Positions 1,329 through 29,700 of a stretch of DNA of 36,018 nt are shown here, piece after piece. The notes under the pieces are model-generated. The model was not told where the DNA came from. It worked only from the letters and a program-made list of their open reading frames with translations, and made no database searches. Origin of the DNA: Deltaproteobacteria bacterium. Lineage in GTDB: Bacteria; Myxococcota_A; JAADFL01. A program made the translations under genes and the position numbers. Numbering within the stretch: the first letter of the stretch is position 1; every line of letters begins with the position of its first letter. The stretch spans positions 1 through 36,018 of the forward strand of contig JAADFL010000011.1 of assembly GCA_013152945.1 (NCBI GenBank), read 5' to 3'.

Positions 1329-2484
1329 CAGGGTATTCCTGTCCAAGATTGGTGGAAATATTGCCTTCATAGCAGGTACGGCAGCCGCACTCCTGTTTTT
1401 CGTAGAGGCTGTTTGCAGGTTTTTCGCACTTGGCCCGCCCGATCCCAGACCGTGGAGAGAAAACCCGGACTTGTACAGAATATGCGGGAGGAGTTACTGC
1501 ACGAGGGCGGACGTTTTATTTCCTATAAAGTCGAGGACAGGTGCAATCAGGTGGCTCAAGACCAACAACTTGGGGTTGCGCGAAGATGAATCTTGCACCA
1601 AGTCTGAAAAAGGCGTTTTCAGGGTTCTCTTATTGGGGGATGAAATCATTGCCGGCGAAATAGCCAATAAACGAACTCTGGCCGCCAGCTTGGAGCAGAA
1701 TTTGACAAGAGTAACGGGTCACAAACTCCGCGTCCTTAACGCAGGTGTGCGCGGATATGGACCTTATGAAATTGCAATCAGGGCTGATTTGGTTGAAAAG
1801 CTGGACGTGAATGCAGTATTGGTGACCATTAATGCAGGAAATGATTTACTGGAAGGATTTCTTGGAAAGTCCAGGTTTAAACCCATTAACAAGTTTAGGA
1901 CTATTCGACTACTTAGCGCCTGGACATATGAACAATTATCATACCTCGGATTGGAAATAAAAGATTTTACAGTCCGCAACCAAGTAGTTGAATGGCTTTG
2001 GCCAAGGCCTGCCGGCGAAGGGTTATCGCAAGCTATTTGGCTCCAGCGAGGGCCTGGGAAATTGAACAGGGCATTGAACATTTTACAAGGCCGGTTAAAG
2101 AAAATCGAGCAGGTCTGTAGAACACACGGCATAAAGATGTACATTCTATTGGCTCCTTGTTGGCTTTCAATGCCCAAGGTAGCTCAAAGCTTGTTCCCAC
2201 GGATTTCGCATAATTTAGTCCGACTGTCACCATCGGCTGCATCCTCCTTGCAGAAAAGGATCGAGAAACGCATTATCGAAAAATTGTCATCCCTGGAGCA
2301 AAACGTGTTTGAACCGAAAACAGAAATGAACGTCAAGGGCGGGTGGTTTACAAGGTCGGATTACCTGTTATCTATGAATGGCAAGCAAGCTCTTGGTGGG
2401 CAGGTGACAGGTTGGCTTTTGAGTGACTATTGGTTTGCCAAACGGATTGATGCGTCGAAAAGAGCCTCCATGGCTGATTTCTAG
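1318..2484 (+). CDS. SGNH-fold membrane-anchored protein, probably catalytically inactive
   Basis: This 388-residue protein has one N-terminal membrane helix (about 10-37) and a periplasmic domain of the SGNH/GDSL hydrolase fold. The family landmarks are visible: NNLGLREDE (83-91), block I as LLLGDE (104-109), the block II region NAGVRGYG (141-148) and block III INAGND (171-176). The nucleophile Ser of GDS is Glu109, and the DxxH block near the C terminus reads SDYLLS (347-352) with no His. Both parts of the usual catalytic dyad are therefore missing. Families with this layout often act on O-acetyl groups of surface polysaccharide, but here a binding or scaffold role is more likely. It overlaps holB by 11 bases, suggesting coupled translation. 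Confidence 0.75.
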   Translation: MSPDRVFLSKIGGNIAFIAGTAAALLFFVEAVCRFFALGPPDPRPWRENPDLYRICGRSYCTRADVLFPIKSRTGAIRWLKTNNLGLREDESCTKSEKGVFRVLLLGDEIIAGEIANKRTLAASLEQNLTRVTGHKLRVLNAGVRGYGPYEIAIRADLVEKLDVNAVLVTINAGNDLLEGFLGKSRFKPINKFRTIRLLSAWTYEQLSYLGLEIKDFTVRNQVVEWLWPRPAGEGLSQAIWLQRGPGKLNRALNILQGRLKKIEQVCRTHGIKMYILLAPCWLSMPKVAQSLFPRISHNLVRLSPSAASSLQKRIEKRIIEKLSSLEQNVFEPKTEMNVKGGWFTRSDYLLSMNGKQALGGQVTGWLLSDYWFAKRIDASKRASMADF

Positions 2485-2503
2485 GTTTTTGGAAACGCCG
2501 GAG

Positions 2504-2531
2504 TTGACCAGGAAGTAAAACAATGGATAAT
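2504..2531 (+). promoter_or_regulatory. Candidate sigma-70 promoter for the FHA gene
   Basis: TTGACC (2504-2509) and GATAAT (2526-2531) are separated by 16 bases; each matches five of six consensus positions. Transcription would begin near 2538, about 60 bases before the FHA start. This would let the gene be expressed apart from holB. Confidence 0.45.
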
Positions 2532-2597
2532 ATTTGCGTTAATGAATTTGGAGTTGGGATACCCATTGGTTGGCAATAGTATGTGGCGGGGCATGTC

Positions 2598-4268
2598 ATG
2601 AAACTGGAAATTAAGGAAATCGGCTCTACTGTTGTCCATGAGATCGGGTCAAGTGGGGCTGTACTCGGAAGAGGACGTTCTGGAACGGACATCCTGGTTA
2701 GGGGAGGTTCCGTATCAAAGGAACATGCAAGGATTTTTTTTAAAGATGACGGATGGTACATCGAGGACCTTGGTTCGGCCAATGGGACTTTCGTGGGTGA
2801 TCGGCCTGTGACAAAACCTACTCCACTGAATGTGGGAAGTCATTTCAAGCTTGGTAAGAAACAATTCCAGGTGGTGTACCTTGATTTCGACATGGAGGCT
2901 GAAGTAACCAAACCTGCGGCCCAAGCCCCGGCCGAAGCAGATTTAATGAGACGGGAATTGGCAGGAGACACCATTCCACAACGGAGGCCGACCCTGGACT
3001 ATTCCGTTGCCGGTAAAAATGATTATGGGGAAAGCGCCGCGCCGCTTACTCCGGCTCCAATAGATGTAGATTCCGGCTCTTCCACAGGAGAAGGAGGCAA
3101 TATCAAAAATGGTGACACGGGCCGGTATATCAATGAGGTGACACAACCAGCCGAAACAGGAGAGGCATTGATGTCCGGTGCAGCAACAAAAATTACAAAA
3201 GTAGATCGAGTTGAACCGGTTGGAGGCTCAGGAACCATGGACGAACAATTGGCAATGACGCAGATGCCTGAAAAATTGGGAACTCTGGATGAAACCATGC
3301 AAGGTGGAGATCCCGGGCAAGAGGACGCCACGGCGCCACAAGCTGAGGGTAACCAGGGAGACGGTGACCAGAATATGGGGCAATCAATGGAAACCAGGAA
3401 CCAGGAGTCCGGCCGGGATTATGAAGTCAACCGAAGTAATGTTGCTGTTTTAGGTAATTCAAGTGACAGAGAGCCCAAGGATGCCGTTGAGGCAGGCCAA
3501 GGAGAATCCGAGACAGAAGAGATTTCAGAGGAGATGGAAGGCATTGGCGGTATTAAGAGTACGTTGGCCGGGATGAATAAGCTTTACCTGGCCGGAATCG
3601 GCCTGGCTGTATTGGCCCTGATCGTTATTGTCATTATGGTTACGGGCAATGTCAACAGTGAAAAGAAAGAAAAGAATGATGATGTTGCGGCCACGGCAAT
3701 GGCCGGCTCCCACAAGGTTCCGGCTAATTCAGTGGATAAGACTGCCAGGGCAACGAATGAACCGGAAACTGCCGGCTCATCGCAAAACATCGGTGAGCAT
3801 CGAGAAAGCGCCGGTTCACCGGTTGCTGCAGGAAAAAAAGTTGTAGCAAGAGAGCAACAAGCAGGGGCAGAGTCGGAACAAGGTTCCACGCCTTTGGAAC
3901 CTGGTAATGCAAGGGGAACAACCCCGCCCGGCAAGGGTAAAGAAAAGAAAAAATCGAACAGTGCCGGACAGGGTAGTACCCCAGGCCCGTGGCAGATATA
4001 TTCCGGGAAATTGAAAACCATAGAAGATACGATTACCAGGAACCCCAGACTTTTAAGGGATAAGACAGTTTATAAGGAGTACGAGAGGTTTTTGAAAGTC
4101 TCATTCGCTATTGCCAAAAAGTACAATAAAAAAATAAAAAAACAACCCTGGCGCAAAAAACTGATCGAAAGGTTGAGGGATCTCGCTCTGATGAAGAACA
4201 CGGGAAACCTTGTCGACAAGCTGTTTAAAAGACTATGCGGTGTGAACGGGGACGGTTGTCCCGGCTAG
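2598..4268 (+). CDS. FHA-domain single-pass membrane protein
   Basis: This protein of about 556 residues begins with a clear forkhead-associated domain (about 1-95), a phosphothreonine-binding module. The key residues are Arg25 of the GRG turn, Ser40 and His43 in SKEH, and Asn62-Gly-Thr in the binding loop. A long acidic, Gln/Gly/Glu-rich disordered stretch follows. One membrane helix lies at about 326-351 (MNKLYLAGIGLAVLALIVIV). After a second disordered stretch comes a basic helical C-terminal domain of about 90 residues that I do not recognise. The FHA domain should be cytoplasmic and the C terminus periplasmic. I chose ATG 2598 over an in-frame GTG at 2583 because the FHA fold starts there. 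No Ser/Thr kinase is encoded in the window, so its phosphorylated partner is unknown. Confidence 0.88.
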   Translation: MKLEIKEIGSTVVHEIGSSGAVLGRGRSGTDILVRGGSVSKEHARIFFKDDGWYIEDLGSANGTFVGDRPVTKPTPLNVGSHFKLGKKQFQVVYLDFDMEAEVTKPAAQAPAEADLMRRELAGDTIPQRRPTLDYSVAGKNDYGESAAPLTPAPIDVDSGSSTGEGGNIKNGDTGRYINEVTQPAETGEALMSGAATKITKVDRVEPVGGSGTMDEQLAMTQMPEKLGTLDETMQGGDPGQEDATAPQAEGNQGDGDQNMGQSMETRNQESGRDYEVNRSNVAVLGNSSDREPKDAVEAGQGESETEEISEEMEGIGGIKSTLAGMNKLYLAGIGLAVLALIVIVIMVTGNVNSEKKEKNDDVAATAMAGSHKVPANSVDKTARATNEPETAGSSQNIGEHRESAGSPVAAGKKVVAREQQAGAESEQGSTPLEPGNARGTTPPGKGKEKKKSNSAGQGSTPGPWQIYSGKLKTIEDTITRNPRLLRDKTVYKEYERFLKVSFAIAKKYNKKIKKQPWRKKLIERLRDLALMKNTGNLVDKLFKRLCGVNGDGCPG

Positions 4269-8039: not shown

Positions 8040-9377
8040 CTATAGATCGAATTTGTAACTTACGTCCAGACCGATGCTGTGGTACAGCCCTCTGTATGCT
8101 GCAGGCCAGTGGTTTACAGGAACATTGTTCGAGTCCAGTTTAACGTCTTCGTCCCTGTTGAAATATATCAATATGTAGGCAAGGTTCATGGTGAGGGGAA
8201 ATTGCTTGGAAATCGTGTACCCCAATCCAAAGCTCCAATCGTAACGATTGCCGTCAGGGAGTGCGGGACCCAGCGTAGTACTCGGGACCGGTGTCAAATC
8301 GAAGATGAAGCCGGTCCTTACTTTGAAGCCGTCAAGACCCTGGACAATGCCTGCTCCATCGAGTTGCAGGCCGAAACGGAAGGTGGCCGTGTCCTGGAAA
8401 TCCTGCTCCATGCGCATGTTGTTTTCCGGTGTCTTGTTCAGCTCGACATAAAGCACGTCATAGGTCGACCACATCACCTGGGTGACCTCAAGCTGGAGCA
8501 AGAGCCAGTTCAACGGCCGGTACGCAATGCCTGCGGCTATGATGTCGGGCATGGTTATCTCCATGGAAAGATCCTGGTCCGGCAGCGTGTCTGCAAAGGA
8601 TGGCGGAACATCGAAAGAGCCCTTGCCCGATAAGGCCAGGTTGAAGCGGCTCCTGTAGTGTATTCCGAGTGAAAGTTCGTCCATGGGTTTGAATAACACT
8701 CCGAAGTTCATACCGAATCCCCATCCCGAACCTCCGAGTTCGGCACTGCCGAACCTGTTCGAAGGATCGACCGAGTCCCAGCCTTCCCGCATGAAGTCGA
8801 TACCTCTTTGAAATTCTATCGAACCCTTGGCTGCGTCGAAACCGAGGCCGAAGGAGATCCAGCGTGCCGGGCTCCACGATATGCAAGGGTTTACAGTAAG
8901 GACCTGGAGCGAGACCTTTTCGATCTCTTGTCTACCAGTGTCCCATTGCTTGCCGCCGGGCCATGAGATTCCAAGGCCGAGGTGAGGGAACACTCCCAGA
9001 CCTGCGGCGACTCCATGCCCCAGGGACGCGGATACATATGCGAACGGGATGGGAAATAAACCATTGTCCGCAGCTATGGAGGGCCCGGTTGTGACATGTC
9101 CTGTCGAGTAGTCCACGTGTTTGGGCTTTGTCTTAAGGGTGGTGAGTATTAGACTCATACCTGCGGTCGCACCTATACCATTTTGAAAGGCAAGGCCGGC
9201 GGGATTGTAGTATACCGCAGTCGGATCGTTCGCCACGGACACGAATGTCCCGGCCATACCCTGGGCTGCAGCTCCCTGCTCGTAGATTAGAAATCCTCCG
9301 GCAAGTGACCGGATGGATGCTAAACTCAATGTAGATACAACGAAAAGCATGGTAACGTATAATTTGACCTGCTTCAT
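8040..9377 (-). CDS. FadL/OMPP1/TodX-family outer-membrane transporter
   Basis: This 445-residue beta-barrel belongs to the family that moves long-chain fatty acids and other hydrophobic compounds across the outer membrane. A signal peptide ends near residue 26 (SLA before GGF). The mature start carries the family hallmark YEQGAAAQGMAG (32-43), then DPTAVYYNPAGLA (51-63) with the NPA hatch motif. The rest shows alternating aromatic beta-strands, and the length is typical (E. coli FadL is about 446). Its ATG overlaps the stop of the upstream lipase gene as ATGA, so the two are probably translated together. The substrate cannot be read from sequence, but a lipase partner points to fatty acids or lysophospholipid products. 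Confidence 0.93.
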   Translation of the reverse strand: MKQVKLYVTMLFVVSTLSLASIRSLAGGFLIYEQGAAAQGMAGTFVSVANDPTAVYYNPAGLAFQNGIGATAGMSLILTTLKTKPKHVDYSTGHVTTGPSIAADNGLFPIPFAYVSASLGHGVAAGLGVFPHLGLGISWPGGKQWDTGRQEIEKVSLQVLTVNPCISWSPARWISFGLGFDAAKGSIEFQRGIDFMREGWDSVDPSNRFGSAELGGSGWGFGMNFGVLFKPMDELSLGIHYRSRFNLALSGKGSFDVPPSFADTLPDQDLSMEITMPDIIAAGIAYRPLNWLLLQLEVTQVMWSTYDVLYVELNKTPENNMRMEQDFQDTATFRFGLQLDGAGIVQGLDGFKVRTGFIFDLTPVPSTTLGPALPDGNRYDWSFGLGYTISKQFPLTMNLAYILIYFNRDEDVKLDSNNVPVNHWPAAYRGLYHSIGLDVSYKFDL

Positions 9378-11605
9378 TGTTCCACCTCCGTCCCCGCCGA
9401 GGAGATGAACAGGGCAGCCTGTGATGCGGCATGGTCATGACCCTGCCCCTGGTCGAACAAGACCCGGTGACCGCCGTCCACCTCTACGGCGTTCACTATT
9501 GTTGCCGGGTCATAGGCTCCGAACTCCTCGGCCAGTTTTTTCGCCGCGCCCGCAGGCAATACCTCATCCTTTTCCGGAATTTGGAACAGGATTTTTTTAT
9601 TGGTCATGGGCACATCTTCCCGTCTCAATAGGTCCTTGAAGGCCATCATCCTCCGAAACCTGAATGCTCGTGCATATGCGGCCGGATCGATTCTTTCCAG
9701 GACCCAGGAGGCGACATCTATTTTTCTCGGCCCCAGAGACACGCTCCACTTGGCAAGCTGGTCTGTGATTCCAGAGGGCGCGTATCCCGCCTTTTCAAAA
9801 GCCTGGATCACCTTTGTTGCTCCCCCGGCAAATGCGCTCAAGACGCCGACCATGACATCCGGTTCGACTGCCAGCACCACCGAACCGGTTATGGCTCCGA
9901 GTGAGCCTGCTACCAGCCCGGGTGGAGAATCGTCCAAAATGCCCGGCCCTGCCTCGGCTTTTTCGAGCGCCTTGGAAAGCGAGTCTGATGTTATCGCCCT
10001 GACCGCCTGTAATTGTTCCACTACCGCCTGCTCAAGGTTGCCTGTTATGAGGAATGGATCGTCGTCCCATAGTTTTGGTATCGGATGTTCTCCATGGCCC
10101 GGGAGATCCAGGGCAACCACGGCAATACACTTGTCTGCCAGGGACGGGGCAATGCCGATTGCATCCTGCTTGGAACCTCCTGCGCCGTGTATGACGATCG
10201 CGCTTTTGAAAGGCTTATTGCAGTCATGCCCTGTAATGGGCAAAAAGATCATGAACGGCACGTCAAGAGTTTGCACATCATCCGGCAGGGGAAGTTGCAA
10301 CAATCCCTGTTCGCCCCTGAAGTCCGGGACTGCCAGCGTGCCCTTGTACATTGCAGAGACATGTCCGGGGATGTTGCCGGCGACTGACCTGGTGATTCGG
10401 GTAATCAGGCCGTCATCAGGGATCGACCCGGAATAGAGGGCCGCCCTTGCCCTTTGCATGTCCATTGCAATGCTCTGGGTTGTCATGGACCATATCAGGG
10501 CGGTGCTGTTCCTGTCCAGGTTCAGGGATGTTTGTATTGCCTCGTCGTCCAGGGCCTCGTTCAGGGCCACCCTGAGTTCTTCAAGGTCTGAGGCATCATC
10601 GTCTTCCAGGGCCGCGGTCCTGCTCCTAAGGCATTTCGGTAACTTGTGCTCCTTATACAAGTCAAGCAATTCCTGCGAATCATATTCACGGTCGTATTCG
10701 CACAAGGGCTCACTTGAAAGGGCAAACCATGTTGCTGCGTCCTGGACCACGGGCCAGTACACCATGCATGTCTCGTCGCCAAGAGATGGGGGGGTTATGC
10801 AGTTGTCGTTGAAGACCTTGCAACGGGTCTGGTCCAGGGCTGCATCGCACTGGGGATTGGGCCTGCCGCCCGGGAGGAATCTCTGGGTTATGGTGTAGGC
10901 GGGGATCTCGGCGGTTTCACTGCCGTGGAGTATGGGCCTCGACGTGTCCGGATCCTTGGCTCTCAAAGCCATGAGATAGGTTTTTCTCTGAAGGAGCGGC
11001 TCGCCGGGTTTCATAAAGGCCAGCCATCTCGAAAGTACGTGGTCCGGGTTGTCCGGGTCCTTGTAATCAACCTGTTCTATGCGAGCTGAGAACTTGGGGA
11101 CATCACTGGCTGCGGCCTGCTGTTCGCCGTCCCAGCTTCGAACCACTTTTATCGATTGATCGAGGGACTGAAGATCGACTTTGTTGGAAAAGGATGCCGA
11201 GAATTCACCAGTCACCGGGAATCCGTCCAACAGGTGGAGTTTTCGTTTTACCGTCCATTCGAAATCAAGAGCAGGATCGCCGGCTCTTGCCTTTGCATCG
11301 GAAAGTTCTTGGTCGTCCCATTCCTGGAAGTCTACACATGTGCATTTTTGCTCGGACAAGGGTCGCTCGTCTGGATCTTTTGGACACCAAGACAGATTGC
11401 ACAGGTCTTCGAATCCGTTTTTTCTGACATCCGAGGGATTGGTTTCAGCCAGGCCGTCGAATGGAAAGGGCAGGCGATCGGCTTTAGGGTCCAGGTCGGC
11501 CACGACTACATCGGGCCTAGGTTTCATGTTCAGGTCCGGCGCACATGCCTCTATCAGAGGCAGAAAGGAACAAGTAAGTATTTTCAGGATTTCGTATCGG
11601 CTCAT
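9374..11605 (-). CDS. VolA-like lipoprotein lipase/lysophospholipase (alpha/beta hydrolase)
   Basis: This 743-residue lipoprotein has lipobox LIEAC with Cys21. A mixed N-terminal region of about 440 residues contains many cysteines. An alpha/beta-hydrolase domain follows, with oxyanion motif HGAGG (473-477), LDLPGHG (499-505), nucleophile Ser568 in AGSLG, acid Asp680 in PEKDEVLP and His713 in GGH. The triad looks complete. The layout resembles the bacterial lipases with an extra N-terminal domain, including Vibrio VolA, a surface lysophospholipase known to be encoded beside a FadL homologue. Here too a FadL-family gene follows and overlaps the stop. That pairing supports cleavage of external lipids with import of the released acyl chains (inference). 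GAGGAG precedes the ATG. Confidence 0.8.
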   Translation of the reverse strand: MSRYEILKILTCSFLPLIEACAPDLNMKPRPDVVVADLDPKADRLPFPFDGLAETNPSDVRKNGFEDLCNLSWCPKDPDERPLSEQKCTCVDFQEWDDQELSDAKARAGDPALDFEWTVKRKLHLLDGFPVTGEFSASFSNKVDLQSLDQSIKVVRSWDGEQQAAASDVPKFSARIEQVDYKDPDNPDHVLSRWLAFMKPGEPLLQRKTYLMALRAKDPDTSRPILHGSETAEIPAYTITQRFLPGGRPNPQCDAALDQTRCKVFNDNCITPPSLGDETCMVYWPVVQDAATWFALSSEPLCEYDREYDSQELLDLYKEHKLPKCLRSRTAALEDDDASDLEELRVALNEALDDEAIQTSLNLDRNSTALIWSMTTQSIAMDMQRARAALYSGSIPDDGLITRITRSVAGNIPGHVSAMYKGTLAVPDFRGEQGLLQLPLPDDVQTLDVPFMIFLPITGHDCNKPFKSAIVIHGAGGSKQDAIGIAPSLADKCIAVVALDLPGHGEHPIPKLWDDDPFLITGNLEQAVVEQLQAVRAITSDSLSKALEKAEAGPGILDDSPPGLVAGSLGAITGSVVLAVEPDVMVGVLSAFAGGATKVIQAFEKAGYAPSGITDQLAKWSVSLGPRKIDVASWVLERIDPAAYARAFRFRRMMAFKDLLRREDVPMTNKKILFQIPEKDEVLPAGAAKKLAEEFGAYDPATIVNAVEVDGGHRVLFDQGQGHDHAASQAALFISSAGTEVEQ

Positions 11606-11782: not shown

Positions 11783-12190
11783 TTATGCGGCCCTGGAATC
11801 CATCTTGGAACGAATGAACTCGGCGATCTCGGTTATTGTTGTTCCAGGAAGGAACAGCTTATCCACTCCCTGGTCTTCGAGCGATTTCAAGTCGTCTTCC
11901 GGTATGATGCCGCCTCCGACGATCAGGATGTCTTCGGCGTTTTTTTCTTTGAGTAATTCGATTACCTTGGGGAAAATCGTCATGTGGGCCCCGGCAAGAG
12001 ATGAGAGGCCGATAACGTCCACGTCTTCCTGGATGGCTGCCTCTACTATGTCTTCAGGGGTCTGGTGGAGCCCAAGGTATATTACCTCCATGCCGGCATC
12101 CCGGAGCCCCTTTGCAATGACTCGAACCCCGCGATCGTGACCGTCGAGTCCCGGTTTTGCCAATAGGACCCTGATTATTTTCTCAGCCAT
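11783..12190 (-). CDS. Acyl-CoA mutase small subunit (B12-binding)
   Basis: This 135-residue protein is a stand-alone cobalamin-binding domain of the methylmalonyl-CoA mutase superfamily. The base-off motif DGHDRG supplies Asp16, His18 (the lower cobalt ligand) and Gly21. GLSSLAGAH (61-69) and VGGGIIP (91-97) complete the nucleotide-tail pocket. I chose ATG 12190 because AGGAGG lies nine bases upstream; a longer frame to 12250 would overlap the large-subunit gene. The gap to that gene is 31 bases. The size matches the small subunit of isobutyryl-CoA mutase (IcmB, about 136 residues) and the small chain of split methylmalonyl-CoA mutases. Together with the next gene it should form the holoenzyme in the cytoplasm. 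Confidence 0.92.
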
Positions 12191-12221: not shown

Positions 12222-13880
12222 TCAAATCGCCGGCTCCCTGTACTCTCCAAAGACCTTCTTGAGTTCTCCTATGATTTCGCCTTCTGTGCACAAAGCCTTG
12301 ACGGCATTCAGGACCCTGGGCACTATGTTATCATTGCCGCGGGCCGCATCGTTGAGTTCTTTCAAAGCCTTGCGCACTGCACCGTTGTCTCTTTCTTCGC
12401 GCAGTTTCTTTACACGTGCCGCCTGCTTGCGTTCCAGTTCGGAATCGACCTTCAGGATCTCCAGGTCCGGTTCATCGTTGGTTCGGTATTCGTTGACTCC
12501 TACGACTATCTTCTCCTTTTTCTCGAGTTGACGCTGGTACCTGTAAGCCGATGATTCGATTTCCCGCCTTATGAAACCATTGTCGATTGCAGCCAGCATT
12601 CCGCCTGAATCATCTATTTTCCGGAAATATTCCTCTGCCCGGCGTTCCATGGTGTCTGTGAGCGATTCCACGAAATACGATCCTGCCAGGGGATCTATGG
12701 TGTTGGCAACGCCTGTTTCATTGGCAATGATCTGTTGTGTTCGCAGTGCGATTGTAACAGCCTTCTCGGTTGGCAGGGCCAATACCTCGTCCATGGAATT
12801 GGTGTGCAGGGACTGTGTTCCTCCAAGCACTGCTGCAAGGGCCTGGTACGCGGTTCTTATTATATTGTTCTCGGGTTGCTGGGCGGTCAAGGAGCAGCCC
12901 GCTGTTTGGGTATGAAACCTGAGCAACCAGGACCTTGGATTCTTTGCGCCGTATTTCTCTTTCATGCGACGCGCCCAAATCCTGCGGGCCGCCCTGTACT
13001 TGGCTATCTCCTCGAAGAAATCATTGTGCGAGTTAAAGAAAAAGGACAGCCGCGGCGCGAATTTGTCCACGTCCATGCCGGCTGCAATGCCCGCCTCCAC
13101 GTAGGCAAAGCCGTCGGCCAAGGTAAAAGCCAGCTCTTGAACGGCTGTCGAGCCTGCTTCCCTTATGTGGTAACCGGATATGGAAATAGTATTCCACTTG
13201 GGCACATGGTCTGCTGCAAACTCCATTATGTCGGTTATTATACGCATGGACTGCACGGGCGGAAAAATAAAGCTCTTCTGGGCATGATATTCTTTCAATA
13301 TATCGTTTTGAATGGTTCCGCGAAGTTTTTCGCTCGAAATTCCCTGTCGTTCGCCTACGGCGATATAAAGCGCCCAGAGTATAACCGCCGGCCCATTTAT
13401 GGTCATGGACGTGGAGACCTTGTCCAGGGGAATACCGTCGAACAGCACGACCATGTCTTCGAGCGAGTCAATGGCGACTCCACACCTGCCTACCTCGCCC
13501 AGGGATCTGGGATGGTCCGAGTCATAACCCATGATGGTAGGCATATCGAACGCCACGGAAAGCCCTGTCCCCCCGCCCTGAAGCAGGTATTTGTATCTCT
13601 GGTTGGATTCTTCGGCTGTGCCGAATCCCGCGAATTGGCGCATGGTCCAGGTTCTGCCCCTGTACATGTCTGTCTGAACGCCGCGGGTATAAGGATATTC
13701 TCCCGGAAATCCGAGGTCTTTCATGTATTCCAGGTGTTCTATATCTTTTGGAGTGTATAATTCCTTGATTGGTTCGCTCGAAACAGTGGAGAATTTTTCC
13801 GGTGTTTTGCGGGAAGGCGTTTCCTTGTTGTCGTATTTTCGTTTTTCTTCTTCAAAGAGTTTCTTATCACGGATTTTCAT
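12222..13880 (-). CDS. Acyl-CoA mutase large subunit, isobutyryl-CoA mutase-like
   Basis: This 552-residue catalytic subunit has the radical acyl-CoA mutase barrel, with YPYTRG (62-67), LSVAFDMPT (107-115), GYDSDHP (118-124) and GYH with His238, equivalent to His244 of methylmalonyl-CoA mutase. The two substrate-selecting positions read Phe83 (RQFAGF) and Gln201 (HAQKSF). Methylmalonyl-CoA mutase has Tyr89 and Arg207 there, while isobutyryl-CoA mutase has Phe80 and Gln198. The 552 + 135 residue split also matches IcmA + IcmB. I therefore favour interconversion of isobutyryl-CoA and butyryl-CoA over methylmalonyl-CoA; a related non-carboxylated substrate is possible. ATG 13880 has GGAGG nine bases upstream; a longer frame to 13958 would overlap meaB. 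No epimerase or propionyl-CoA carboxylase gene is present. Confidence 0.9.
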
Positions 13881-13896: not shown

Positions 13897-14856
13897 TTAC
13901 ACAGGGTTGGGACCGGCAATAAGACTTGCAGCAAGCTCCTCGGCCTCCTTGAGCGCATCTCCTCCGGAGATTATCCTGTTTACCGCGGCTTGGACGAGGG
14001 TATCGGACCATTCGGCCCGCCATATTTCGTTTTCCATCTTTTCATAGAAATGTTGTTTCAATTGTCTTTTTATCCGGGCCTTTCGTTTTTCATCCAACTC
14101 TTTTGTCTGCTCCAGGAATCCCTTGTGGGAATCAATGGCCCGGATGAGTTCATCCAGGCCCTTTCCGGTATTGGCGATTGTCAATACAACGGGCGGTCTC
14201 CAGCCGTTTTCTCTTACCGTGATCAATTTCACGAAATCTTTGAGATCGGCCACCATCGCATTTGTGCCGGGCTTGTCCGCCTTGTTGACAACGTAGATGT
14301 CGGCTATTTCCATGAGCCCGGCCTTCAAAAACTGCATGCTGTCACCGGCCTCGGGCTGAAGCACTACGCACGTAGTGTCGACCAACTCGCGGATTTCCAC
14401 ATCGACTTGCCCCACGCCAACAGTCTCGATTACTATTGTGTCGAATCCAAAGGCCTCCAGGACTGCCGTCGTGAGCCACGCAGGCCAGGAAAGGCCGCCA
14501 GTACTGCCCCTGGTCGCCATAGACCTTACAAAGACATTCGTTCCCTTGATGTCCTGCATGCGGACACGGTCACCCAGAAAGGCTCCCTTGGTAAAAGGGC
14601 TTGACGGATCGATCGCCACTACACCGATTTTCTTTTTTTGTTTTTCGAGTATGGATGCAAATGAGTTAACCAGGGTGGATTTTCCCACGCCGGGCGCCCC
14701 GGTAAGGCCGATACGTATAGCCCTCTTGGACGGATCATAGAGTTCGGCCAGGAGAGACGTGCCAAGAGGATCGCCCTGCTCGATGAGGGAGATGATTCTC
14801 GCAACCGCCCGGCGATCGCCAGCGCGAAAGCGGTCCGCCAGGTCTTGCCTGTTCAT
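13897..14856 (-). CDS. meaB: MeaB-type GTPase chaperone of B12 acyl-CoA mutase
   Basis: This G3E-type GTPase of about 319 residues gates loading of adenosylcobalamin onto acyl-CoA mutases and protects them from inactivation. Visible motifs are Walker A GAPGVGKS (53-60), the switch region [20 protein letters not shown] (81-100), ETVGVGQ (144-150) and base-specificity motif NKAD (191-194). A helical C-terminal dimerisation arm follows. I chose ATG 14856; the frame continues up to 14910, which would overlap the adenosyltransferase gene, and ribosome-site evidence is weak for both. It sits between the adenosyltransferase and the mutase large subunit with gaps of 11 and 16 bases, a direct operon of cofactor maker, loader and enzyme. 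Confidence 0.95.
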
Positions 14857-14867
14857 GGCCTTGCCTT

Positions 14868-15419
14868 TCAGTACTCCACCCCCGGTCTGGCTGAAAGTCC
14901 ATTCCTCCATGGGTGCTTGACCTCTTCGATCCTGGACACGTAGTCGGCCCTGTCAAGGATTTCAGGAGGAGCATACCTGCCGGTAATGACCAGCTCTGTA
15001 TGCCTGTTGCGGCGATCAAGAAGATCGAGCGCATCTTCGAGTTTTATCACTCCGTAATCCACTGCCACGTTCAACTCGTCGAGGATCACCAGGTCGTGTT
15101 CTCCTGCATCCAGGACCTGCCTGGCCCTTTCGATTCCACGGGCCGCCAACTCTAGGTCTTCTTTGGAAGGCGCTCCCTTCTTGACAAAGGTAGGCAGACC
15201 ATGTTGTTCGAGGGTAAGCCCCATGGGCTCCAGTTTCCGGGCCATGCGGACTTCCCCGTAGTTTTCGTCCCCCTTCATGAACTGGATGATTATTACCTTG
15301 CCTCCATGTCCCATGGCGCGAAGCGCAAGACCGAGCGCAGCCGTGGTCTTGCCCTTTCCATCACCTGTGTACACCTGCACTGTTCCGATATTTTTATTCT
15401 TGTTTTTATTTTTGTTCAA
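14868..15419 (-). CDS. cobO: Cob(I)alamin adenosyltransferase, CobO/BtuR type
   Basis: This cytoplasmic enzyme transfers the adenosyl group of ATP to cob(I)alamin, making the cofactor the mutase needs. The P-loop GDGKGKTT follows directly after an N-terminal Asn-Lys run. ILDELN, TGR and the C-terminal HP..NGLSARPGVEY complete the CobA/CobO/BtuR signature; at about 183 residues the length is normal. The frame opens at a GTG at 15431 with no ribosome site. I prefer TTG 15419, which has GGAGG about five bases upstream and lies 15 bases after the predicted transcription start. It is the first gene of the four-gene B12 mutase cluster. The Asn-Lys run is encoded by an A-rich low-complexity stretch. 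Confidence 0.92.
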   Translation of the reverse strand: MNKNKNKNKNIGTVQVYTGDGKGKTTAALGLALRAMGHGGKVIIIQFMKGDENYGEVRMARKLEPMGLTLEQHGLPTFVKKGAPSKEDLELAARGIERARQVLDAGEHDLVILDELNVAVDYGVIKLEDALDLLDRRNRHTELVITGRYAPPEILDRADYVSRIEEVKHPWRNGLSARPGVEY

Positions 15420-15440
15420 GGCATCCTCCACGGTCGATGG

Positions 15441-15470
15441 AATCTAGCCGAGAGCCGGCCGGGGTGTCAA
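15441..15470 (-). promoter_or_regulatory. Candidate sigma-70 promoter for the B12 mutase cluster
   Basis: On the minus strand TTGACA (15465-15470) is followed after 18 bases by TAGATT. Transcription would start near 15434, leaving a very short leader of about 15 bases that contains GGAGG before TTG 15419. A leader this short leaves no room for a cobalamin riboswitch. Confidence 0.42.
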
Positions 15471-17385: not shown

Positions 17386-17600
17386 AGCGGCTCAAAAGTA
17401 TTTGTAAACTCTGCCACGCAGACTCTTGCCGGTTCGCGCAGGTTTTTGTAATTAGCTGAAATTCTTTGTTTTTAAAATAGCTGTTTCAGCCCCTTGAATG
17501 CTGTTTGATAATAGTGTATTGAGAACCAATCGGGGATTACCCCGGGGAAAGTAACGGTCAGAGGCCATGAGCGGCCATTAATGACAGGAGGGTGATAGGA

Positions 17601-19370
17601 ATGGCAGACAATCCTTATTTCGTAGACGAGTCGAAACCTTGGTTCACCAAGGAGGCCGGTTGGCCCGACGAGGTGCCGAAAAACATCGAATTTCCGGAAA
17701 TGACTCTTGGGGAAATGCTTCGCAAGACCGCGAGGCAGTACCCGGATTACAAGGCAATCTGGTTCTTGAACACCTTTATGACGTTCAGAAAACTGGACAA
17801 GTACGTTGACGCCTTTGCAACGGCACTACACAAGAGAGGGATCAAGAAAGGTGATGTTGTAACCTTGCTTCTTCCAAACTCTTTTCAGTATGTCATAGCA
17901 TACTATGCCTGTATGAGAATCGGGGCTATTGCCTCCGGTGTTAATCCCACTTATAAACCGTTCGAAATACTTCATCAGCTTGATACGGTGGGGAGCAAGG
18001 CATTGATAGTTCTGGATGCCCTGTATGAGAAGCAGGTTGCCCCGATAATAGAAAAGCACCCCATGGATTTCGTGGTGGCAACTAATATTACCGACCTTGC
18101 CGACATTTCCGGTTTGAAGAAAATTCTGGGTAAACTCCTGGGCAAAATACCAACCGGCCCGGTACCTGACGATGCCTTGCGGTTTCTTGACATGCTCAGG
18201 ACCCCGATCGATCTACCCGAGGTAGAAATAAATCCAAAGGAGGATCCTGCAACTTACATAATGACCGGCGGTACTACCGGTGTACCGAAAGCGGCTGTGT
18301 TGACTCATTTCAACTGTGTTTCAAACACAATCCAGTCAAGGGCATGGTTGTTCAAGGTCAAGCCCGGGGCTTGCGCCGTGGGCGTGTTGCCTTTATTCCA
18401 CTCGTTTGCAATGACCACGGTGATGAATCTTACAGTCAATTTCGGTGGGTTGGCCATGTTATTCCCGCGTCCTCCTGATACCAAGGAATTGGTGGATACG
18501 ATAGTCGGGATCGGTCCGGACGATGCAACCATGTACGTAGGAGCTGAAATCTTATTCCAGCGCATGGCGGACTTCCTGGATAACCCCCAAAACAAGCAAT
18601 ACGTGGACAAGCTTGCCGGAAAGCTGGCCTTGTGTGTTTCCGGGGCAGGTCCGCTTCACAGGCCGGTCCAAGAAAAGTTCGAGAGAGTTACGGGCGGTCG
18701 CCTGGTAGAGGGTTACGGCCTGACAGAGACGACACCTGTCGTGTCGGCCGGACCTTTCTGGGGCGAGCGCAAGATAGGAACAATAGGTCTTCCTTTTCCA
18801 GGCACGGAATGGCGGATCGTGGACAAGGATGATTACAAGAAGGTGACCCCGACCGGTGAGAGCGGAGAGATAGCGGTTGCAGGACCGCAAGTCATGAAAG
18901 GGTACCTGAACAAGCCAGAGGAAACAGCGGAGACCGTGGTTGAAATGGATGGCAAGCGGTGGTGCCTGACCGGCGACATCGGCTTTATGGATGAGCTTGG
19001 CCGCATTACCATCAATGACAGGAAGAAGCAGCTCATAAAGTACAAGGGTTATTCCGTATTTCCAAAAGAAGTGGAAGAACTGGTCGGCGGCCACGAATCT
19101 GTAAGCGAGGTCGCAGTAGCCGGCCTGCCCGACGAAGAGACCGGAGAGGTGATCAAGGCCTGGGTGGTGTTGAACCCGGAGTACAAGGGCAAGATCACCG
19201 AGTCCGAACTCCTCCAGTGGTGTAAGGACAACCTGACACACTATAAGGTGCCCAGGCATATCGAGTTCAGGGATGAGTTGCCCAAGACCCTGGTCGGTAA
19301 AGTCTTGCGAAGGGTGTTGCAGGAAGAAGATCCTATATGGAAGAAGGCTAACCAAGGCAAGAAGGAGTAG
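17601..19370 (+). CDS. Long-chain acyl-CoA synthetase (FadD-like, AMP-binding)
   Basis: This 589-residue member of the ANL adenylating superfamily activates a fatty acid to acyl-CoA through an acyl-AMP. The P-loop TGGTTGVPK lies at 222-230, GYGLTETTP at 371-379, hinge LTGDIG with Asp459, and the C-terminal PKTLVGK motif with catalytic Lys567. Family members of similar length act on medium- to long-chain acids. GGAGGG lies about eight bases before ATG 17601; an in-frame GTG at 17592 is less likely. The 215 bases before it contain no signal I can support. It could activate the acyl chains brought in by the nearby lipase and FadL-like channel, although it is on the other strand and about 8 kb away. 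Confidence 0.93.
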   Translation: MADNPYFVDESKPWFTKEAGWPDEVPKNIEFPEMTLGEMLRKTARQYPDYKAIWFLNTFMTFRKLDKYVDAFATALHKRGIKKGDVVTLLLPNSFQYVIAYYACMRIGAIASGVNPTYKPFEILHQLDTVGSKALIVLDALYEKQVAPIIEKHPMDFVVATNITDLADISGLKKILGKLLGKIPTGPVPDDALRFLDMLRTPIDLPEVEINPKEDPATYIMTGGTTGVPKAAVLTHFNCVSNTIQSRAWLFKVKPGACAVGVLPLFHSFAMTTVMNLTVNFGGLAMLFPRPPDTKELVDTIVGIGPDDATMYVGAEILFQRMADFLDNPQNKQYVDKLAGKLALCVSGAGPLHRPVQEKFERVTGGRLVEGYGLTETTPVVSAGPFWGERKIGTIGLPFPGTEWRIVDKDDYKKVTPTGESGEIAVAGPQVMKGYLNKPEETAETVVEMDGKRWCLTGDIGFMDELGRITINDRKKQLIKYKGYSVFPKEVEELVGGHESVSEVAVAGLPDEETGEVIKAWVVLNPEYKGKITESELLQWCKDNLTHYKVPRHIEFRDELPKTLVGKVLRRVLQEEDPIWKKANQGKKE

Positions 19371-23792: not shown

Positions 23793-26700
23793 ATGAACAA
23801 AAAGACGGTGTACTGGGCTGTTGCGATATTCAGTGTAACGGCAATAACAACCGCCGTGATTCTCGCCTCGGGGAATCCTCCCTTCATGGTCAATCCCGGA
23901 TCACCGCTTTACTTCAATCTGGAAAGGCCGGAGGCGATCGATCTTCATGCTGTAGACAAGGAAGGGGACCAAATATACTGGTATTGTCTGCTCGACGGGG
24001 AAAAAGACTGTAGAGAGGCTGATATCCTCATAGAACCCGACAAGCAATCCAAGACAGGAGAGCTTGCATGGCTGTACGCCAAGGAGGTACCCCCGGGTGA
24101 CTACAATATCGAGCTTTTCGCATGTGATGAGGCCGTTTCGGACCCCAAGGTCTGCGATACGGTAACAACGGTGCTGCAGGTGTACAAAGGATTCCCGCCG
24201 AAACTCCATCCAATACCGTCGCCTGACTTGGTAGGTGTTGGCCAGGACATGGCCAGGTACTTCAATGCAGAGGATGTTGACTCCGACAGACTGTATTGGT
24301 CCTGTGATATGTGCGATGCCTATGGTGCCGAGTTGAAGCCCGGGGATGAAAGCGGCAGGCAGGCAATCTTCCACTGGATTCCCGGAAGAAGCGGTATATA
24401 TACCTTTGATATTACTGTTTCCGATGGGGATGTTCCGGGCAAGGGCTCATCGGACCACCAGATATACCAGGTCGAGGTTCGGGATGGCTTTGGCTTGTCG
24501 GTCAGGAGAATCCTGCACGAGCGAAGCCCCGGCCATGAATTCGAGGCATACGAATTGCAAAAGTCGGGAGAACGGGTGACCGATTCCGAAGGATCGCTTT
24601 TGCATATCGAGGCAAGGTCATGGGGTATCGTCAACGAGATCTACAAGATTGAAAATCCGCCTCCGGGAAGTGAGGTGGGCCCCGAGTCCAGGAACATGTA
24701 CTATGTTCCGGACTATGAATTGGTATTGGACGGCGACCCTCCGCTTGTGATCGAGCCTATGACGGATTTTTCCGTGCAAGGTGATACATTGAAGGGAGAG
24801 CATGTCAGCTTCAATTTCCTGGTCGAGATTCAGGTCGATCATACTGACAGGCCCACGACGTACACTCCGTTGCTGCCTGCCAAGGTAAAGATCGGAGACA
24901 CTTACACAGTGATCATACAGGGTAAAGACCCTGACGGCGAGGATCAGGCCAGGATAGAGTATGCATGTGTTTCACTCCAACCGCCTGGGACCTTGCCGCC
25001 CGAGGTCAATTGCAAGACCACTGGCGAAGGCTTGGAACTTTCATGGCGACCGGATCCGGGCCAGGCATCGGACTACCTGATTGAAACGAGAAGCGGCAAG
25101 AACTTGGAAAATGGAGGAAACGAAAGACAAGGGACTTACGAGGCAACGCAAATCGTTTTGCATGCTCCTGCGAAACCTGCGCCCGGCCTCGGCTTCCTTG
25201 CATCCAGCACCCCCCCCAATTTTCAACCCAAAATAAACATGTATACAAAGTCCGGCAGCTATGTGCTTCAAAGCAAGCCTATCGCCCTGGACGGCGATCT
25301 CATGGAATTGTCTGTTGATGCGAACAATGTAGGCGGCAACTCCGGAGGTGACGGAGTTTCCGTGGATATCTGGTACGACTGGGAAGACACGCAACCACCC
25401 GGCAATGATGAAGAAGCTGATCTGGTATGTATCCCCGAGGCACCGGGTGATTGTTTCGATACTCCCTTCAGCATAAATGTCGATCACAGGGAAACCGGTT
25501 CGGACCTCATGTACACAGTGACCGCCTGGGTCGACCGCTTCGACGTACTCGACGAGTTGAGCGAGGAGGATAACCTGTCAACTACTTCCTTCTGGGCAAG
25601 TAGCGACGTGGATAACGATCAGGTGCCCGACCTTTCCGAATCGTTGGGAAATATCAGTATATCCACGGTGTGGGATAATCCCACGGGCGGCACTATGGAA
25701 CCGGGTGATTCGAGAACCGTGTACATGAAGGTGCATAACAGCGGGACATTACCGGTCCGGGTGAGTTCCTCTTCGGACGTGGACCTTAAATTCAGGACTA
25801 CCGTGGGAGTGGACGTAACGTCCGAGTACCAGGTAACCCTTACTTCTCCGCTTGTTTTTCCCGTAACCATCCAGGGGGAAGACGATTATGTATTTACTTT
25901 TACCGCCGGGTTGAAGACACCGGGAGACATGGGAGACAATTATCCTACGAGCGGGACCATCAGGGTCGCAGGGACTATCGTGGCGACCAACAACATTCCG
26001 AACATGACACCGCCGCCGGGATCTACGCCTTCAACGGTATCGGACACTGATGGAAACCCTTACGATTCATGGATCGTGCCTTCTTGTTCATCCACTTACT
26101 GTGACGATGGCATTCCATGCACCATAGATGCATGTAACAGCGGCGGAACCGCGTGTACTCATACCGCCGACAATGCCTTTTGCGATGACGGCTTATGGTG
26201 CAATGGAAGCGAGACATGCAACCTCGTATCGGGATGCCAAGCCGGGATCGCGCCTGATTGCTCGGATGGCGTATCGTGTACTTCGGATTCATGCAATGAT
26301 GTCACGGATACGTGCGAGCATATTCCGGATGATTCTATTTGCGATGACGGCCTGTGGTGTAATGTGGATTCCTGTGATGAGACACTTGGATGTACGCACG
26401 GCCCAAGGGACTGCTCGGACGGCGTGTCGTGTACTGCGGACTCGTGCAATGAAACCGCGGATATTTGCGAGCATTCGGCAAATGATGCTTCGTGTGACGA
26501 CGGGCAATGGTGCAATGGCAGCGAAACGTGTGATCCGGATCTTGGTTGCCTGGCGGGCGCGGCTCCCGATTGCTCCGACGGGATCGCATGTACCAACGAT
26601 TCTTGCAATGAAGCCACGGATAGCTGTGATCATTCAGCCGATGATTTTTTATGTGACGACGGGCAATGGTGCAATGGCAGCGAAACGTGCGATCCGGATC

Positions 26701-29700
26701 TTGGTTGCCTGGCGGGTGCGGCTCCCGATTGCTCCGACGGGATCGCATGTACCAATGATTCATGCAATGAAGCGACGGATACCTGTGAGCATGTGGGCGA
26801 TGATTCCGCATGTAATGATGGCCTTTGGTGTACCATGGACAGTTGCAATGAAACGGCGGGATGCGAATATTCGGCCCGTGACTGCTCCGACACAATAGAT
26901 TGCACATCGGATACATGTAACGATGTAACGGATACCTGTGTTCATCAACCCCAGGACTCGGCATGTGACGACGGCAACATGTGTAATGGAAGCGAAACGT
27001 GTGATGCTCTGACAGGTTGTGTAATGGGTGAGGCGCTGGTATGCGATGATTCAAACCAATGTACGGACGACTCGTGCGATCCTGTATTGGGGTGTGTCCA
27101 TATTAACAATTCAAGTTCATGTAGCGACGGCGATCCATGCACAGAGAACGATACATGCTCCGGGGGGATATGCTCAGGAGATCCCCTGGATGCCGATCAT
27201 GATGGTTACATATCGGATTCTTGCGGTGGCAATGATTGTGACGATTCCAGGGGGGACGTGAATCCGGCTGCAACCGAGGGACCTTTCGGTGATTCGACTT
27301 GTCAGGACGGATTGGATAATGATTGCGATAACAAGATCGATGAAGTTGATACCGGGTGCCTGGAGTGTTTGGTCGACAGCGATTGTGACGATAACAATGT
27401 CTGCAACGGCACGGAAATATGCAGTAGCGGCGTGTGTGTGTCAGGAACGCCGCTGGATTGCGATGACGGACTTTGGTGTAATGGAATGGAGACGTGTAAT
27501 CCCGTGAGCGGATGTACAGCGGGTACAGCCCCGGACTGTGACGATGGGATTGCATGCACCATTGACGGTTGTGACGAGGTGAACGACAGGTGTGAACACA
27601 TCGCCGACAATGGTTCCTGCGACAATGGAGCCTGGTGCGACGGTAGCGAGACCTGTAATCCAACCACGGGTTGCGTTTCGGGAACCGCACCGAATTGTGA
27701 TGATGGGATAGCCTGCACATCGGACGATTGCGATGAAGTGAACGATAAATGTGAAAACATTCCTGATGATTCGTCCTGCTCCGACGGCCTGTGGTGTAAC
27801 GGGGGAGAAATTTGTGATTCAACCGCCGGTTGTATAAACGGTATTCCTCCGGATTGTGATGATACGGTCTCATGCACTTTGGATTCGTGCGATGAATTGA
27901 ATGATACCTGTGTGCACGAAGAACAGGGCAGCCTGTGTGATGATTCGAATCCCTGTACAGACGATAGTTGTGATTCATCCTCGGGTTGTATACACACACC
28001 AAATTCTGTTTCATGTGACGACAATAATCCTTGTACTACCGATGATACATGTTCGAATGGAAATTGCATTGGTGGTGGACAGCTCGATTGCGATGATTCT
28101 AATCCATGCACGGATGACAGTTGCAATTCATCATCCGGCTGCGTCAATACGCCCAACACCGGACCGTGCGATGATAACAATGAATGCACGATCGGCGATA
28201 CATGTTCAGGTGGTGTGTGTACAAGCGGCACAGCTCGTGATTGTGACGACTCAAACCCGTGCACCGATGATTCGTGCAGCCCGTCCATGGGTTGCCTTAA
28301 CATCAACAACACCGAGGTTTGCGACGACAATAATGTCTGCACGGTGGGGGACAGGTGCTCCGGCGGTTTGTGCCAGGGGAACCTGAAAGATGAGGATAAC
28401 GACGGTTATGTGCCCGTGGCTTGCGGTGGAATTGATTGTGACGACCAGAGGCATGATGTTAACCCCGGCATGTTCGAGGGCCCCATGGGAGATGCCTCCT
28501 GCTTCGACGGGTTGGACAATGATTGTGACGGGTCTGTGGATTCCGATGACCAGGGGTGCGGCACCTGCACGAACGATCAGCAGTGTGATGATGGTAATCT
28601 GTGCAACGGCGTGGAGAAATGCGAGTCAGGCAGATGCGTTGGTTCTCCCGGCTTGTCGTGCAACGATGACAACCCGTGTACCGATGATTCTTGCGACAAG
28701 GTAACAGGGTGTGTGTTTACTCCCAACACCCGTGCTTGTGACGACAACAATCCATGTACCGTAAATGACGTGTGCAATAACGGGTTATGTACCGGGGGAA
28801 CGCCAAAAAATTGTGATGACTCAAACCCGTGTACAAGCGATTCTTGCAGGGCGGGGGAAGGCTGCGTTAACGAGCCGAATACCGAGCCTTGCAATGACGG
28901 TGATGACTGTACCGCCAACGATCGGTGCTCGGGGGGTGTCTGTGTAGGACAACCGGTGGATTTTGATCAGGACGGCTATGTTCCGGAATCATGCGGCGGG
29001 CGGGATTGCAACGATCATGATAAGGCTGTCAACCCGTCTGTTTTCGAGGGACCTTTTGGGAGTGAGGCGTGTGCAGACGGCAAGGACAATGATTGTGACG
29101 GGCTCGTCGATACCAGCGACAGTGGATGTTCCGGCTGCATGAAGGATTCGGATTGTGATGATCTTGATGTGTGCAATGGCGCTGAGAAATGCGTTGAAGG
29201 CAAGTGCATACCAGGCGAAATGCTGGATTGCTCGGACGAAAACCCGTGTACATCGGATACGTGTGAAGCGGGCAGGGGATGTATCAATACGCCGGTAATA
29301 AACGGTATTTCTTGTGACGACCACCTTTGGTGCAACGGCACTGACGTTTGTGTGGATGGAGTTTGTGTTGTGGGACAGCCCCCTGATTGCGATGATGGAA
29401 TACCTTGTACTGCAGATACATGCAGTGAGTCACAGGACATGTGTTTGCATGTGCCCATGAACCAGGGTTGTGACGACGGCAAATGGTGTAACGGTGTAGA
29501 GGTTTGCCAAGCCGGAAAGGGATGTGTTGCAGGGACCCCGGTCGACTGTTCGGATAACATCGACTGCACCAGGGATGAATGTGTCGAGAAGGACAAGTCT
29601 TGCAAAAACGTGCCGCGAAACGAGTTTTGTAACGACAATGATCCTTGTACTGCCGACGTGTGTGAACCGGCGATAGGGTGTGTGTTCCACTCAGAACCGG

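Follow-up and report, generated by a model that had tools for sequence, protein, structure and literature searches.

Based on residue signature, phylogeny, operon context and a published gene cluster of the same composition, we propose that a four-gene operon in a deltaproteobacterial contig (the window, the whole 36,018-nucleotide stretch analysed) in all probability encodes an adenosylcobalamin-dependent isobutyryl-CoA mutase of the IcmA/IcmB type (EC 5.4.99.13) and the helper proteins that load its cofactor. An earlier interpretation of the same DNA (the sequence-only reading) had favoured this enzyme over methylmalonyl-CoA mutase (MCM), and the residues, the tree, the operon context and the Syntrophothermus lipocalidus cluster all lend it support. 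The enzyme type is already known and this is another member, whose substrate, direction and physiological role we infer from sequence. More interesting than the identity itself is the predicted sharing of the operon's small subunit between two mutases.

Open reading frames and profile searches in the window place all four genes on the reverse strand in the order adenosyltransferase, MeaB, large subunit and small subunit, and this order, together with the short spacing, suggests a single operon. The adenosyltransferase gene (14,868-15,431, reverse strand, start codon uncertain) encodes an ATP:corrinoid adenosyltransferase of the CobA/CobO/BtuR type (TIGR00708, 183 bits, cut-off 168; PF02572), and is followed by a gene for a MeaB-type GTPase chaperone for B12 loading (13,897-14,856, reverse strand; TIGR00750, 303 bits, cut-off 241; PF03308). 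The large substrate-binding chain is encoded by an open frame of 552 amino acids plus stop (12,222-13,880, reverse strand), with an alternative upstream ATG at 13,958. It is an acyl-CoA mutase (TIGR00641, 798 bits, cut-off 304), assigned to the isobutyryl-CoA mutase (IcmA-like) type from its F/A/Q signature, the tree and a structural model. After a gap of 31 bases comes the gene for the small adenosylcobalamin-binding, IcmB-like subunit of 135 amino acids (11,783-12,190, reverse strand; TIGR00640, 170 bits, cut-off 57), which contains the B12 motif DGHDRG (DxHxxG type) and has HcmB (4r3u_C) as its closest solved chain.

Upstream of the operon lies a promoter-like site (15,441-15,470, reverse strand), a consensus match that we regard as weak because the region contains five such sites where chance alone would give 3.6. 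The search for a cobalamin riboswitch returned no Rfam family at its gathering score anywhere in the window. The genes on either side of the operon (8,040-11,605 and 17,592-19,370) encode a FadL/TodX-type outer-membrane transporter, an alpha/beta hydrolase and a FadD-like acyl-CoA ligase, which suggests a neighbourhood concerned with lipid use; searches of the window detected neither a beta-oxidation dehydrogenase nor a thiolase close by. Elsewhere in the window (23,793-31,802) is an open frame of 2669 amino acids, whose sole Pfam match consists of seven Dicty_CTDC repeats of the slime-mould type.

Alignment to solved structures places Phe83 (codon 13,632-13,634, reverse strand) and Gln201 (codon 13,278-13,280, reverse strand) at the positions of Tyr89 and Arg207 of P. 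shermanii MCM, which are sequence indices 88 and 206 in 1req_A, a chain one residue short. The sequence-only reading had claimed this correspondence, and it is borne out against 1req, 5req and solved IcmF. The entry 5req, entitled 'Y89F mutant', departs from 1req exactly at the Tyr aligned with Phe83, and solved IcmF has Phe and Gln at the two substrate positions. Since the F/Q pair occurs in 80/80 of the closest relatives fetched and Tyr/Arg chains form a separate clade, the substitution is, on these alignments, more than a chance one. A passage in a Rhodospirillum rubrum paper calls MCM from Tyr/Arg at two specificity-determining sites, citing Jost et al. 2015 (PMC7238569), and the two-residue diagnostic is thus established practice. 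Other mutases read at the same positions include three from Streptomyces plasmids, all Y/R, and two with different signatures. On Sphingobium plasmid pTomTYG43a, a gene annotated as methylmalonyl-CoA mutase (1938-3659 of the locus) and followed by small-subunit and MeaB genes reads Val/Glu/Val across the three specificity positions, a combination seen in no class of this comparison. A Proteobacteria MAG encodes a third mutase chain (G097:C19:1971-3623) with Val/Ile/Gly.

In a tree of 86 mutases, inferred after removal of the three signature columns, all 25 Tyr/Arg chains form one clade (support 100/99), and the large chain falls within a separate F/Q clade of 20 rows (support 100/99). Forcing it into the Tyr/Arg group was rejected by an AU test on a 30-row set that included the signature columns (p-AU 0.0096). 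The sequence-only reading had named a position inside the true MCMs as evidence against its proposal; the chain instead lies outside all of them. A Streptomyces IcmA row of provisional sequence formed a long branch of unsettled place in the trees, and as a query found a best match of at most 54% among the listed records. The nearest clade members are from Bacillota (Carboxydocella, Peptococcaceae, Carboxydothermus). The best Bacillota F/Q relatives reach about 70-75% identity, above the best from the organism's own phylum (63%, or 65% over a partial chain), which hints at horizontal transfer.

The cassette of adenosyltransferase, MeaB, large and small subunit is conserved, whole or mostly, in nearly all loci of the large chain's clade, in which the closest relatives are mostly Bacillota; most Anaerolineae F/Q genes occur without it. 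Among 91 proteins flanking 18 relatives' loci were 16 acyl-CoA dehydrogenases (at 11 of the 18 loci), seven thiolases, four hydroxyacyl-CoA dehydrogenases and four CoA-transferases. At the Carboxydocella locus, the cassette comes directly after genes for two acyl-CoA dehydrogenases and an enoyl-CoA hydratase-like protein. Such neighbours would be expected of an enzyme supplying butyryl-CoA oxidation.

In the mechanism we propose, the adenosyltransferase would produce adenosylcobalamin, the MeaB G-protein would gate delivery of this cofactor to the small subunit, and binding of the acyl-CoA would fall to the large one. Breakage of the Co-C bond would then initiate a radical 1,2-shift of the CoA-thioester group, interconverting isobutyryl-CoA and n-butyryl-CoA. 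Phe83 and Gln201 take the place of the Tyr/Arg residues by which the free carboxylate of methylmalonyl- and succinyl-CoA is held, so the pocket would suit a simple alkyl chain. In the cell, the enzyme would probably feed isobutyryl-CoA derived from valine or isobutyrate to butyryl-CoA beta-oxidation, or work in the opposite direction.

Profile-based annotation points to a different enzyme. The best NCBIfam match above its cut-off is the model 'methylmalonyl-CoA mutase N-terminal domain', which makes plausible the earlier prediction that automatic annotation would call the gene an MCM, and the full-length MCM model scores 684 bits, under its cut-off of 876. That the large chain is an MCM nevertheless seems highly improbable to us, given that both carboxylate-binding residues are changed, that the tree and the AU test place it elsewhere, and that a separate Tyr/Arg MCM adjoins an epimerase gene in the same genome. 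In a passage that cites Cracan 2010, IcmF is described as widely misannotated as MCM (PMC7764203). The 552- and 135-residue chain lengths given in the sequence-only reading were correct, whereas their use as a sign of Icm was rejected, as the Y/R mutase of this genome has the split layout too. The mutases of a haloarchaeal, an Ilyobacter and an Acetoanaerobium replicon are likewise split and Y/R, hence MCM-type, so the layout is not specific to Icm; the haloarchaeal and Ilyobacter ones lie beside or near methylmalonyl-CoA epimerase genes. Two further families were rejected: IcmF, because the parts are separate open frames here and the IcmF model scores far under its cut-off, and ethylmalonyl-CoA mutase (MeaA/Ecm), because the large chain is neither a single B12-fused chain of about 660 amino acids nor Tyr/Arg. 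Ruegeria MeaA exemplifies the latter family (661 amino acids, fused B12 domain, Y/A/R, near ccrA).

Falling on the non-MCM side of the tree does not in itself define the substrate, since the Tyr/Arg clade excludes HcmA as well and that side thus spans more than one activity or substrate class. An AlphaFold2 model of the large chain (mean pLDDT 81.5, pTM 0.85) matches HcmA (4r3u) best (TM 0.89), then MCM, then IcmF; judging from this model, the fold alone does not split substrate classes. HcmA is the closest solved structure in both sequence and fold, as would suit a 2-hydroxyisobutyryl-CoA mutase of the HcmA or RcmA type, yet we give this identity only the slimmest chance. At positions 83, 110 and 201, HcmA and a Xanthobacter homologue from an hcm-like operon have Ile/Asp/Gln, as against Phe/Ala/Gln here, and Ala110 (codon 13,551-13,553, reverse strand), which aligns with what we take to be Asp117 in HcmA numbering, argues against such an activity. 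RcmA presumably has Val at the aligned position. Moreover, hcm and rcm operons come with a 2-hydroxyisobutyryl-CoA ligase gene (PMC7176365), which is absent from this operon. The F/Q pair would exclude a carboxylate ligand while leaving the alkyl chain, and with it the chain length, unfixed by residues 83 and 201. The enzyme could therefore be an F/Q mutase acting on another uncharged acyl-CoA, such as isovaleryl-/pivalyl-CoA or 2-methylbutyryl-/valeryl-CoA, with isobutyryl-CoA a side substrate at most; the titles of IcmF crystal entries name isobutyryl-, butyryl-, isovaleryl- and pivalyl-CoA. We consider this rather unlikely, as the same cassette adjoins beta-oxidation genes in relatives, and a cluster of this type is known from an organism that isomerises isobutyrate.

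An isobutyryl-CoA mutase would operate alongside a separate MCM in this organism. Family searches of the genome, which is 94% complete, detected two large chains of the mutase family, one Icm-type and one MCM-type. The second (contig C35) has Tyr/Ala/Arg at the specificity positions, is itself a split chain, and has a methylmalonyl-CoA epimerase gene directly after it, indicating a separate large chain for the propionate pathway. The same searches returned 11 acyl-CoA dehydrogenase and two carboxyltransferase matches, which makes a capacity for beta-oxidation likely.

Neither of the two large chains has a fused B12 domain, and the genome yielded one TIGR00640 protein and one TIGR00750 (MeaB) protein, both encoded in this operon. 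A single B12 subunit for both enzymes is the reading that these counts most simply suggest. We consider it reasonably probable that the small subunit pairs with both the Icm and the MCM large chains, one B12 module (adenosyltransferase, MeaB and small subunit) thereby serving two mutases. The pattern may be common in split-type genomes. Sixty genomes, this one included, encode a single F/Q and a single Tyr/Arg split chain as their only large mutase chains (second-chain signatures were read by residue, in one genome only at the Arg position). One small subunit was found in 50 of them, two in eight and none in two, in a set that was chosen by similarity to the large chain, is rich in Chloroflexota, and consists of related and in many cases incomplete genomes. 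Assembly gaps are an unlikely cause of the missing small subunits, because independent loss at 10-30% would give p < 1e-10 for 50/60, a value overstated by the relatedness of the genomes and their similarity to the query, and because the pattern also occurs in a one-contig Anaerolineales chromosome of 2.24 Mb (CP075367.1). In a quick tree of this short protein, the single small subunits group with F/Q-linked ones and not with most Tyr/Arg-linked ones (SH-aLRT 92). The literature searched, with incomplete coverage, held nothing relevant on a shared mutase small subunit, and the 2:1 ratio of large to small chains may be a new point. In the Chloroflexus aurantiacus genome paper, Caur_1844, 2508 and 2509 are listed together as MCM (PMC3150298).

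Labelling the large-chain gene as MCM would misplace isobutyrate/butyrate chemistry in propionate metabolism. Reading two residues and looking for the cassette of adenosyltransferase, MeaB, large and small subunit offers a simple route to re-annotating these widespread proteins, with targets in Bacillota, Chloroflexota, several more phyla and some archaea. If the small subunit is indeed shared, counting large chains would not tell how many complete mutases a genome encodes, and two pathways would fail together once a single small-subunit gene was lost.

Among known systems, MCM (1req, 2xij and the paralogue in the same genome) shares the fold and the TIGR00641 family with the large chain, and the paralogue is also split; MCMs differ in having the Tyr/Arg pair and forming a separate clade, and the paralogue in its link to an epimerase. 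HcmA/HcmB (4r3u) resembles the operon's enzyme in its split subunits and in Gln at the second position, and at 48% identity is the closest solved structure, but has Ile and Asp where Phe83 and Ala110 occur here. IcmF (4xc6, 5cjt) has Phe and Gln at the substrate positions and the same fold, but is a single chain (B12 domain, G-protein, mutase), compared with three genes here, and its identity is 36-37%. The Streptomyces cinnamonensis IcmA/IcmB enzyme likewise consists of separate large and small subunits and presumably carries the same F/Q pair, at Phe80/Gln198 in the figures quoted by the sequence-only reading, whereas the operon described here has MeaB and adenosyltransferase genes next to the mutase pair. 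The published counterpart in composition is Slip_0757-0760 of Syntrophothermus lipocalidus TGB-C1, described as an isobutyryl-CoA mutase cluster, from an organism reported to isomerise isobutyrate to butyrate (PMC5017805). Likened by gene functions, both clusters comprise mutase N- and C-terminal domain proteins, a cob(I)alamin adenosyltransferase and a MeaB-like protein (PMC5017805); the operon described here differs in belonging to another organism, whose genome has a separate MCM large chain that lacks its own small subunit.
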